Assembly (NCBI RefSeq): GCF_027924905.1 | Contig: NZ_AP027055.1 | Coordinates: 1,674,001-1,738,000, forward strand | Source of the DNA: Limnohabitans sp. INBF002 | Lineage (GTDB): Bacteria; Pseudomonadota; Gammaproteobacteria; Burkholderiales; Burkholderiaceae_C | Direction: 5' to 3' | Length of the DNA stretch: 64,000 nt | In this document: piece by piece, positions 48,311-50,577 of the stretch | How the letters are laid out: each line of letters begins with the position of its first letter | Numbering within the stretch: the stretch's first letter is position 1 | Made by a program: the position numbers and the translations under genes | The notes under the pieces: generated by a model | The model's input: only the letters and a program-made list of their open reading frames with translations | Databases searched by the model: none | Told to the model about the DNA's origin: nothing

Positions 48311-48316
48311 ACTCTG

Positions 48317-48440
48317 TTTCGCGCGCAACTGGCGATAGGCGTGCGGGGCACCAGCCCCGTACCGCTGACGTGGATGTATGACCACTGGGAAGCGCGCAGC
48401 CTCTTTCATGAAGAGGTGTTTTGCCGTTCGCCTGGGCAGC
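48317..48440 (+). promoter_or_regulatory. ZTP (pfl) riboswitch upstream of glyA
   Basis: Conserved features of the ZTP/ZMP riboswitch are present in order. P1 strand GCGCGC (48321-48326) is followed by AACTGGCGATA, a variable GC hairpin (CGGGGC/GCCCCG, 48344-48359), then ACGTGGA and CCACTGGGAAGC, and the pairing GCGCGC strand (48392-48397). After a linker hairpin comes the signature CGCCTGGGCA (48429-48438). It binds the folate-stress alarmone ZTP and raises glyA expression when 10-formyl-THF is short. It lies 58 bp before the glyA ATG. I cannot decide between transcriptional and translational control. Confidence 0.88.
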
Positions 48441-48497
48441 CCTGCCGCTCTTTTCCGAGTTATAGCCGGGACACCACCTTTTTCTAGGACTGCCAGT

Positions 48498-49742
48498 ATG
48501 TACGACCGCAACATCACCATCGAACAAACCGATCCAGAACTCTGGGCTTCTATTCAGGCCGAAAACGCCCGTCAAGAACACCACATCGAGCTGATCGCCA
48601 GCGAGAACTACGCGTCTCCTGCCGTCATGCAAGCCCAAGGCTCGCAACTGACCAACAAATACGCCGAAGGCTACCCTGGCAAGCGCTACTACGGTGGCTG
48701 CGAATTCGTGGACGTGGCCGAGCAACTGGCCATCGACCGCATCAAAACCATCTTCGGTGCCGACTGCGCCAACGTGCAACCCCATTGCGGCGCCTCGGCC
48801 AACGAAGCCGTGTTCCTCGCGTTCTTGAAGCCCGGCGACACCATCATGGGCATGAGCTTGGCCGAAGGCGGTCACTTGACCCACGGCATGGCCCTGAACA
48901 TGTCTGGCAAATGGTTCAACGTCGTGTCTTACGGCTTGGACGCACAAGAAGCCATCGACTATGAAGCGATGGAAGCCAAAGCCCGCGAACACAAGCCCAA
49001 GCTGATCGTGGCGGGTGCATCGGCTTACAGCTTGCACATCGACTGGGCACGCTTTGCCAAGATCGCTAAAGAAGTTGGTGCGATCTTCATGGTCGACATG
49101 GCCCACTACGCTGGCTTGATCGCCGCAGGCCAATACCCCAACCCTGTGCCTCACGCCGACGTGGTGACCTCCACCACCCACAAGAGCTTGCGCGGCCCAC
49201 GCGGCGGCATCATCTTGATGAAGGCAGAGCACGAAAAAGCCATCAACAGCGCCATCTTCCCAGGCCTGCAAGGCGGCCCGTTGATGCACGTCATCGCCGC
49301 CAAGGCTGTGGCGTTCAAAGAAGCCATGCAGCCTGAGTTCAAAGAGTACCAAGCCCAAGTGGTGAAGAACGCCAAGATCGTGGCTGAGACCTTGACCGCA
49401 CGCGGCCTGCGCATCGTCAGCGGCGGCACACAAAGCCACGTGATGTTGGTGGACTTGCGCTCCAAGAAGATCACCGGCAAAGAAGCCGAAGCGGCTTTGG
49501 GTGCAGCGCACATGACGATCAACAAGAACGCCATCCCGAACGACCCAGAGAAACCATTCGTTACCAGCGGTGTGCGCATCGGTACCCCGGCGATGACCAC
49601 ACGCGGCTTCAAAGACGAAGAAGCCCGCATCACCGCCAACTTGATTGCCGACGTGTTGGACAACCCACACGACGAAGCCAACATCGCGGCGGTGCGTGCC
49701 AAGGTGCATGCGCTGACTTCTAAGTTCCCTGTTTACAAGTAA
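48498..49742 (+). CDS. glyA: Serine hydroxymethyltransferase
   Basis: 414 residues from ATG 48498; the longer frame from 48378 would translate through the riboswitch. The PLP lysine is in [14 protein letters not shown], with [29 protein letters not shown] and [14 protein letters not shown]. It converts serine and THF to glycine and methylene-THF. The ZTP riboswitch links it to folate status. A strong terminator follows 11 bp after the stop. Confidence 0.98.
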
Positions 49743-49753
49743 CTTGCCATCAG

Positions 49754-49780
49754 CCCCCGTCCTTTGTGTCGGGGGTTTTT
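49754..49780 (+). terminator. Terminator of glyA
   Basis: CCCCCG/CGGGGG stem with a 10-nt loop followed by TTTTTG, directly after the glyA stop. Confidence 0.88.
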
Positions 49781-49836
49781 GTTTGTCTGCTTCTGTTTTG
49801 TGTTGTTTCGCTCGTGACGGGTTCTCTCCGGAGAGG

Positions 49837-49912
49837 GCACGGGTTGCAGGTACGGCGGGCTCTTCATGCTGGGGTACCAGAAATCATCGCCCGCCGCACC
49901 TACAACCCGCGC
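49837..49912 (-). repeat. Hairpin element A (24-bp stem, conserved 28-nt core)
   Basis: The arms are 49837-49860 and 49889-49912. Three of the 24 positions are not Watson-Crick, and read on the minus strand all three are G-T wobbles. On the plus strand they would be A-C mismatches. The 28-nt core (minus strand) begins GATGA and TTT, has a CTGG/CCAG inner stem closing TACC, and ends CAT and GAAGA. GATGA and GAAGA can pair as tandem G-A, A-G, T-A, G-A, A-G. The core is shared with element B; the stem sequence is not. Confidence 0.85.
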
Positions 49913-50007
49913 TGTTTGAGTTTAGAAATGGTTCGCTCGTTGCTACGCAACTTTGCCTGAGGATGGGCACGAGTGAAATGCGCGAGCGAAGCAAAGCACG
50001 ACGCAGA

Positions 50008-50085
50008 CTGAGGGTGTTTGGTATTGGCCGCTGACGATTTCTGGTACTCCAGCATGAGGAAGCGGCCAATACCAAATGCCCTCAG
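50008..50085 (+). repeat. Hairpin element B (25-bp stem, conserved 28-nt core)
   Basis: The arms are 50008-50032 and 50061-50085. Two of 25 positions are non-Watson-Crick, both G-T wobbles on the plus strand. The core (50033-50060) begins GACGA and TTT, has a CTGG/CCAG inner stem closing TACT, and ends CAT and GAGGA. It differs from element A at three positions. Two of these form a compensatory pair (T-A in A, C-G in B) and one is in the tetraloop. It sits 42 bp before nrdR, so it is probably in the nrdR leader. Confidence 0.85.
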
Positions 50086-50127
50086 CGAGCCCAGTAAAAA
50101 GTACAAAAGCAAAAGAGAGAACAAAAC

Positions 50128-50577
50128 ATGAAATGTCCCTTCTGCGGCCACCTAGAAACCCAAGTCGTCGAGACCCGCATGTCCGAAGACGGCGACTCCA
50201 TTCGCCGCCGTCGCCAATGCGGCGCCTGTGAAAAGCGTTACACCACCTATGAACGCCCCGACGTCAGCTTCCCCAACATCGTCAAAAAAGACGGTCGCCG
50301 CATCGACTACAAGCGCAACAAACTCCTCGAATCCATGGGCCTCGCCCTGCGCAAACGCCCTGTCAGCACCGAACAGGTCGACAACGCCATCGAACGCATT
50401 GAAGAAAAACTACTCAGCCTCGGCCAACGCGAAGTGCCCTCCACCCGCATTGGTGAGTTGGTGATGCGCGAACTCAAAAAACTCGACAAAGTCGCCTACA
50501 TCCGCTTTGCCAGCGTGTACCGCAGCTTTGAAGACATCGACGACTTCAAGAGCTTGGTGGACGAAGTTCGCAAGTAG
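50128..50577 (+). CDS. nrdR: Transcriptional repressor NrdR
   Basis: 149 residues. The N-terminal zinc ribbon is [16 protein letters not shown]...[15 protein letters not shown], and an ATP-cone domain follows ([31 protein letters not shown]). It represses ribonucleotide reductase genes in response to ATP/dATP. The glyA-nrdR neighbourhood is conserved in betaproteobacteria. No NrdR-box pair was recognised in the window. Confidence 0.97.

Follow-up and report, generated by a model that had tools for sequence, protein, structure and literature searches.

Some DNA hairpins are recognised as single strands and on one strand only, as are the ends of IS200/IS605 elements and the attC sites of integrons, and the stems of attC vary while their structure is kept. 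Among the systems closest to the hairpins analysed here, REPs have stems of 5–13 bp, form inverted dimers, in some cases with two different partners, and are known from within the uvrA genes of Thioalkalivibrio and O. terrae (PMC3733652). Inverted REP doublets are referred to as REPINs (PMC3116915), and recognition of REP hairpins by TnpA-REP is confined to one strand (PMC8266576). The defaults of RepRanger admit palindromes of at most 32 nt with loops of at most 11 nt (PMC12306157). A repeat of 75–91 bp in Bordetella, the BRE of Hot et al. (2011), is described with function unknown; further hosts are Polaromonas, with 29 copies in JS666, Rhodoferax, Delftia and Acidovorax, and the repeat is intergenic or sometimes located within coding sequence (PMC3110155).

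Here we describe two hairpins, A and B, in a window of 64 kb (the whole stretch of DNA analysed) from the 2.59-Mb genome of Limnohabitans sp. INBF002, labelled G000 in our numbering, in which G denotes genomes and L denotes loci. They are located between two plus-strand ORFs which we take, from their sequence, to be glyA upstream (48378–49742, with the true start probably downstream of 48378) and nrdR downstream (50128–50577, with matches in 67 of 73 genomes of the genus). A ZTP (pfl) riboswitch (48315–48444, 49.5 bits) overlaps the start of the glyA ORF. Hairpin A, of the type we call Y, occupies 49837–49912 with its core strand minus, and its 24-bp stem (arms 49837–49860 and 49889–49912) encloses the core at 49861–49888. 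Hairpin B, of type X, occupies 50008–50085 with its core strand plus, and its 25-bp stem (arms 50008–50032 and 50061–50085) encloses the core at 50033–50060. Read on the core strand, A is GATGATTTCTGGTACCCCAGCATGAAGA and B is GACGATTTCTGGTACTCCAGCATGAGGA. They score 78.7 and 78.9 bits, respectively, with R2, the broader of our two covariance models, and are its only matches in the window.

Reading of the sequence and alignment with relatives bear out the positions, arms and 28-nt cores given in the initial annotation, as well as its account of three core differences between A and B, two of which make up a T-A/C-G swap while one is in the tetraloop. Counted on the strand where the core reads GATTTCTGGTAC..CCAGCATGA, the A stem has 21 Watson–Crick pairs and 3 G.T, and the B stem has 23 and 2, so that all five non-Watson–Crick positions are G.T on the core strand, as had been noted. 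The accompanying statement that the two stems have no sequence in common needs a small correction. Among the 20 core matches in this genome, the 18 nt of 5' arm beside the core have a mean pairwise identity of 0.47 compared to 0.32 in shuffled arms, which indicates that the stems are diverged relatives. Folding energies on the core strand are −59.5 kcal/mol for A and −55.6 kcal/mol for B (z-scores −9.8 and −10.1), compared to −49.3 and −49.1 kcal/mol on the opposite strands (z-scores −5.6 and −9.9). None of the 200 shuffles folded as well as the native sequence on any of the four strands, and both strands of this region of the window fold strongly.

The spacer between the two hairpins (49913–50007, assigned to no strand) has an inverted repeat of its own, TTCGCTCG / CGAGCGAA, and evolves faster than the hairpins. 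Hairpins of type X have flanks in common: an inner flank (50000–50007 on the plus strand of the window), which reads ..CGCAGA or ..GCAGT at most of the 9 X loci of this genome, and an outer flank (50086–50099, plus strand) of the form CGAGCNCAG..AA. Among the 9 paralogous X loci, flank identity is 0.55 on the 5' side and 0.78 on the 3' side, compared to 0.27 and 0.35 in shuffled sequences. The outer flank of the Y-type hairpin (49822–49836, assigned to no strand) contains, as read from the sequence, a small palindrome, CTCTCCGGAGAG, and some other Y loci have a similar sequence, CTCTCCGG or CCTCCGG.

The same kind of hairpin is dispersed throughout the genome. The covariance model R1 finds 26 hairpins, which make up 7 divergent pairs and 12 singles and so occupy 19 loci, plus one extra weak match (E 0.02) that falls on the complementary strand of a hairpin already counted. 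The core pattern with at most 3 mismatches occurs 20 times compared to 0 for the reversed control, which shows that it is not a product of chance. Among this genome and 120 relatives, the pattern is present in 22 of 121 genomes, 17 of 73 within the genus and 5 of 48 outside it, and the five matches outside the genus, with 3 mismatches each and stem scores of at most 7, are attributed to chance. The core match in G071 likewise has 3 mismatches and is without a good stem; the model nevertheless finds variant-core hairpins in that genome. R1 matches are present in 30 of 73 genus genomes (E ≤ 0.001) and in 56 of 299 genomes of a family sample (E ≤ 1e-6), representing 36 of 141 genera, and R2 also finds 56 of the 299 (E ≤ 1e-5), 49 of them in common with R1. 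In a class sample, searched with stricter filters and 13 candidates scored per genome, R1 matches were found in 2 of 369 genomes, both of the same family. Because 13–16 candidates were scored per genome, all copy counts in the family and class searches are lower bounds. Public genome contigs contain at least 120 stretches with exact cores, with titles that include, among the matches listed, Limnohabitans, Rhodoferax, Polaromonas, Comamonadaceae, Burkholderiales, Burkholderiaceae, beta proteobacterium and one MAG labelled Chitinophaga. The viral contigs searched contained 0 exact core matches, and virus-borne spread was rejected as an explanation. That the element is dispersed agrees with the initial annotation, and the findings favour a repetitive sequence akin to mobile DNA over a regulator of the adjacent genes.

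In loci L001–L168 we parsed 226 distinct core matches, 209 of which have a stem score of at least 14, with most scores between 18 and 36. The divergent arrangement of A and B is characteristic of the family: 65 of 67 neighbouring hairpins at most 700 bp apart are divergent (−,+), one pair is −− (L078) and one is ++ (L120), and the core-to-core distance of neighbours is 105–294 bp. Partner hairpins usually bear unlike stems, and no identical pair exists among the 20 core-pattern stems of the own genome, where the best identity is 0.83 over 18 nt. The core is nearly constant at loci with differing stems. It comprises an internal loop that stays constant, C-GATTT ... YATGA-G, and a terminal hairpin of small size. 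In 81 model matches, variant cores included, the positions that vary least (0.95–0.98 each) are the GATTT and ATGA of this loop together with a G that follows the core pair; the terminal hairpin and the stem are variable. Single hairpins in L052, L081 and L099 have a MITE-like form, bounded by the 20-nt inverted repeat GGTCAGATCAACATTAATTT or a close variant in units of ~135 bp repeated 2–3 times per locus, and parts of such units are found in L113 and L118. Around the window pair and the copies in G184, visual inspection showed no terminal inverted repeats.

Covariation was assessed in 36 out of 83 cluster representatives. These were chosen for core and stem, which favours the paired percentage, and 97.5% of their cells pair, compared to 33–49% in controls with slid partners. 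All 23 outer-helix pairs show double changes, the 4 terminal-hairpin pairs are invariant, and the covariation score is 0.895 compared to 0.178 after shuffling, with 0 of 500 shuffles matching on any of five measures. The core pair that appeared to covary between A and B does so across the family, with 61 C-G and 18 T-A among 81 aligned matches.

The mismatches that remain in the stems are strongly dependent on the strand. Among 3762 pairs (18 pairs beside the core in the 209 hairpins, read on the core strand) there are 243 G.T, 12 A.C and 105 other mismatches; the 17 of 226 core matches with stem scores below 14 are left out of these counts, and choice of hairpins by stem score and by model both favour G.T over A.C somewhat. 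With one hairpin per cluster (56 clusters) the counts are 70, 2 and 32, respectively, and in the own genome they are 21, 1 and 2. Since each wobble would be A.C if read on the opposite strand, the excess of G.T is tied to the orientation of the core. It is also present inside genes, where the ratio of G.T to A.C is 32:1 in 21 hairpins with the core strand antisense to the gene and 15:0 in 10 hairpins with the core strand sense, several of these hairpins being orthologous (not independent) and all collected with a model that favours G.T. Hairpin A is antisense to both glyA and nrdR and, in every one of the 14 genomes where it is retained, has 1–5 G.T and zero A.C. Four of these 14 show a single mismatch of another sort in addition, and in G050 hairpin B has one A.C. 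As the bias is the same for hairpins antisense or sense to a gene, the gene mRNA is not the molecule selected for folding, which leaves the DNA strand itself or a putative antisense transcript as candidates. Taken together, the covariation, the G.T excess and its persistence antisense to genes uphold the initial annotation in its main point, that selection acts on the fold of one strand and not on stem sequence. Recent changes are less skewed. In 124 members of 27 clusters of similar stems, the minority states comprise 34 double changes that restore Watson–Crick pairing, 31 G.T, 8 A.C and 31 others, with 25 C>T versus 6 G>A, and strand-biased mutation may therefore contribute to the G.T excess.

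On balance, and with considerable reserve, we consider it probable that A and B each form half of one copy of a dispersed, dimeric REP/REPIN-like repeat whose working form is a single-stranded DNA hairpin. The observations behind this reading are the copy number, the divergent pairing, the strand-tied covariation, the persistence at fixed loci, the copies within reading frames and, in one related genome (G184, below), the copies at unrelated sites. A stem of ~25 bp and widely varying sequence would hold up the constant internal loop and the small terminal hairpin. The folded single strand would be DNA, exposed for example on the lagging-strand template, and not a separate antisense transcript. 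A protein, possibly an enzyme of the HUH/Y1 (TnpA-REP/RAYT) kind, would read the constant tip on the core strand, and this reading could be the route by which copies spread or are rewritten.

Alternatively, the hairpins could act as RNA, each as a transcript of its own strand that might start in the spacer and run outward, with the tip bound by protein or the hairpin processed by RNase III. We regard this as unlikely. G.U is a classic tolerated pair in RNA, some tips resemble CTTG or GNRA tetraloops when the alignment is inspected by eye, and the strong folding of both strands in this region of the window also counts in favour. If BRE is related, the location of a BRE repeat in the region of two detected Bordetella small RNAs (PMC3110155) would also be in favour. 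However, the wobble bias is equally strong where the core strand is antisense to the containing gene and to both flanking genes, and an RNA would consequently require independent antisense transcripts. No sigma-70-like promoter was found in 49740–50130, which is a weak test, and neither the element nor any of 10 related loci reached the gathering score of an Rfam family; with E relaxed to 10 there were 8 weak matches, five of them to microRNA families, all below gathering.

The stems could also be passive palindromes, kept perfect by template switching in replication or by arm-to-arm correction, without selection for folding. The copies in G184 are what such a process might leave behind. That genome contains seven copies of an identical 74-nt hairpin in unrelated surroundings, and an eighth copy with 6 substitutions is present in a locus labelled Polaromonas (L077). 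Among the G184 copies (L250–L255) the adjacent sequence differs, at least three kinds of partner hairpin occur, and the spacer has its central part inverted in some copies relative to others. An identical hairpin amid differing flanks and partners shows past movement or rewriting of hairpins as units, and these sequences suggest that hairpins are replaced as units. Correction between arms, however, would remove mismatches alike on both strands and leaves the 243 to 12 skew tied to core orientation unexplained, nor does it account for a core that stays nearly constant where stems differ. Passive maintenance therefore appears improbable.

At the glyA-nrdR site itself, the pair would, on the single-stranded DNA reading, be a long-established resident that selection on folding maintains and that deletion removes now and then. 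Hairpins are present in 15 of the 30 loci fetched from 67 nrdR matches (29 loci were parsed). By mean pairwise identity in 8 genomes, the arms (0.98 for B and 0.83 for A) are better conserved than the spacer (0.75) and the left flank (0.72); the cores have values of 0.94–0.95 and the short right flank 0.85. The idea that homologues at this site keep pairing and not stem sequence holds in part. In close relatives the stems are almost unchanged in sequence, whereas in G049, G071, G031 and G064 both arms and the core have changed and pairing is kept over most of the stem. B is missing in G041 and G066, A in G062, and both in G047 and G058; these five genomes keep pieces of arm or flank, so that the losses resemble deletions of a pair long in place. 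In ten members of the genus that are more distant, glyA and nrdR are only 3–24 nt apart. In L182 and L186 (G071 and G031), six-base tandem repeats (GGCAAA- and AGCAAC-like) are located between hairpin B and nrdR.

Of the 19 loci of the own genome, a heuristic ORF call places 8 between genes that converge, 6 between codirectional ones, 1 between a divergent pair (presumably a polA-like and a kinase-like gene) and 3 inside reading frames, with 1 ambiguous. Such a distribution is usual for REP-type repeats. The in-frame hairpins are in HrpA (DUF3418; L302, G000:C1:1497498-1497565), UvrA-type (L306, 2295290-2295359) and molybdopterin oxidoreductase (L307, 662556-662625) genes, and all three translate as low-complexity linkers. 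The HrpA insert is common to several members of the genus, with stems that differ and still pair. The linker motif is present in 15 of 30 hrpA loci, and the covariance model finds a hairpin in 9 of the 11 loci given to it (L309–L319). UvrA-type genes contain hairpins in G286, G363, G171 and G256 as well as in the own genome, with the UvrA domain confirmed by Pfam in L245 and the other genes assigned by likeness of translation. In other genera (L245–L248 and L256), several divergent pairs are located in one double-length UvrA-type frame, up to three in L245. Hairpins with stems that differ between loci also occur in L055, L083, L106, L108, L111 and L128, in the intergenic region of what we take to be parE and parC.

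This distribution bears on the further possibility that the hairpins are cis-acting 3' elements of the neighbouring genes, that is, bidirectional terminators or hairpins that stabilise or process mRNA, roles of the kind proposed for BIMEs and NEMIS. Eight of the 19 loci lie between convergent genes, and the 25-bp stem is a predicted substrate of RNase III. Nevertheless, some hairpins are inside frames and one is between divergent genes. In the window no T-run follows directly after A or B on either strand, on which ground an intrinsic terminator was rejected, and the sole terminator-like site there is glyA's own, at 49761–49775. We give this explanation little credence. A paired regulatory RNA specific to glyA and nrdR, which the initial annotation had put forward, is not supported, given the same hairpins at 19 loci, three of them in coding frames, and a wobble bias independent of gene sense; it was rejected.

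If the hairpins indeed work as single-stranded DNA, it is tempting to speculate further that they are chromosome-wide sites, read on one strand through the constant tip on its stem of free sequence, and that a putative family-restricted protein is behind their active maintenance by selection, site by site and in different species, even where the hairpin lies on the non-coding strand of hrpA and uvrA. We consider this extension doubtful. If true, maintained hairpin sites would represent a new type of DNA address, defined by structure and not by sequence. A wobble bias tied to one strand, seen even on the non-coding strand of genes, is an easy way to test from genome sequence whether single-stranded DNA structure is under selection. 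The family also makes it possible to test two roles against each other, substrates of domesticated HUH transposases versus chromosomal sites with a role for the host.

A RAYT-like gene is an obvious candidate for a mobiliser. The own genome has one at G000:C1:2246200-2246910 (L207:2698-3411), which scores 79.8 bits with the NCBIfam model REP_Tyr_transpos (REP-associated tyrosine transposase), just below the cut-off of 80. Homologues are present in 282 of 299 family genomes, mostly as a single copy, including 55 of 56 genomes with R1 hairpins compared to 227 of 243 others (p = 0.21 by Fisher's exact test); in this sample the gene does not track the hairpins beyond being nearly universal. In the genus sample the gene is found in 28 of 30 genomes with hairpins compared to 28 of 43 without (p = 0.005), a comparison that controls neither phylogeny nor completeness. 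The models found 0 hairpins in 27 loci searched around Y1/RAYT-type genes, and the role of an adjacent mobiliser is unsupported in these stretches. In G000, G048, G050, G042 and G065 a hairpin is located 2.6–4.1 kb from the RAYT-like gene (~3.9 kb in the own genome, outside the stretch searched), which is too far to be called adjacent and may reflect shared synteny only. No Y1 transposase gene was found beside the hairpins examined. Involvement of RAYT is a reasonable guess and no more.

Compared with REP, BIME and REPIN sequences, the present family is alike in consisting of dispersed, mostly intergenic hairpins arranged as inverted dimers that may join two types, in the composition of the dimer (two inverted hairpins and a spacer, with nearly all neighbours divergent), and, for REPINs and BIMEs, in the presence of a RAYT protein gene in the same genome. 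It differs from REPs and REPINs in that the stems are mostly 18–36 bp and not 5–13 bp, the constant part is the tip, whereas in REPs it is the foot and lower stem, and no RAYT gene was found adjacent. In 12-nt windows at the stem feet, one hairpin per cluster, the GTAG tag occurs at 0 of 53 5' feet and 0 of 55 3' feet, and CGTC at 4 of 53 and 0 of 55, respectively. The default limits of RepRanger would not admit the present hairpins. Bacterial repeat families are mostly defined by conserved sequence, and a family with varying stems is easily missed by sequence searches; among the matches listed, the open-licence literature contained no other description of such a hairpin-repeat family. The ends of IS605 are on the same strand, whereas the present hairpins are divergent. 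Rickettsia palindromic elements (RPE) belong to another lineage and are likened here by description. They are palindromic repeats in frame in genes (PMC3733652), as are some of our hairpins. The size, hosts and occasional coding location of BRE, as described in PMC3110155, match the present family, and by this comparison of descriptions BRE may be the same family or a relation of it. BRE differs in having been found by primary-sequence identity above 70% and in being often tandem, and the main text of that paper uses the word "palindromic" once and "hairpin" 0 times (PMC3110155). What stands out in the present family is the selection on one strand, seen within genes and opposite to them. We conclude that these hairpins represent a real, well-supported family of structured repeats and a novel structural variant of REP-type dimers.
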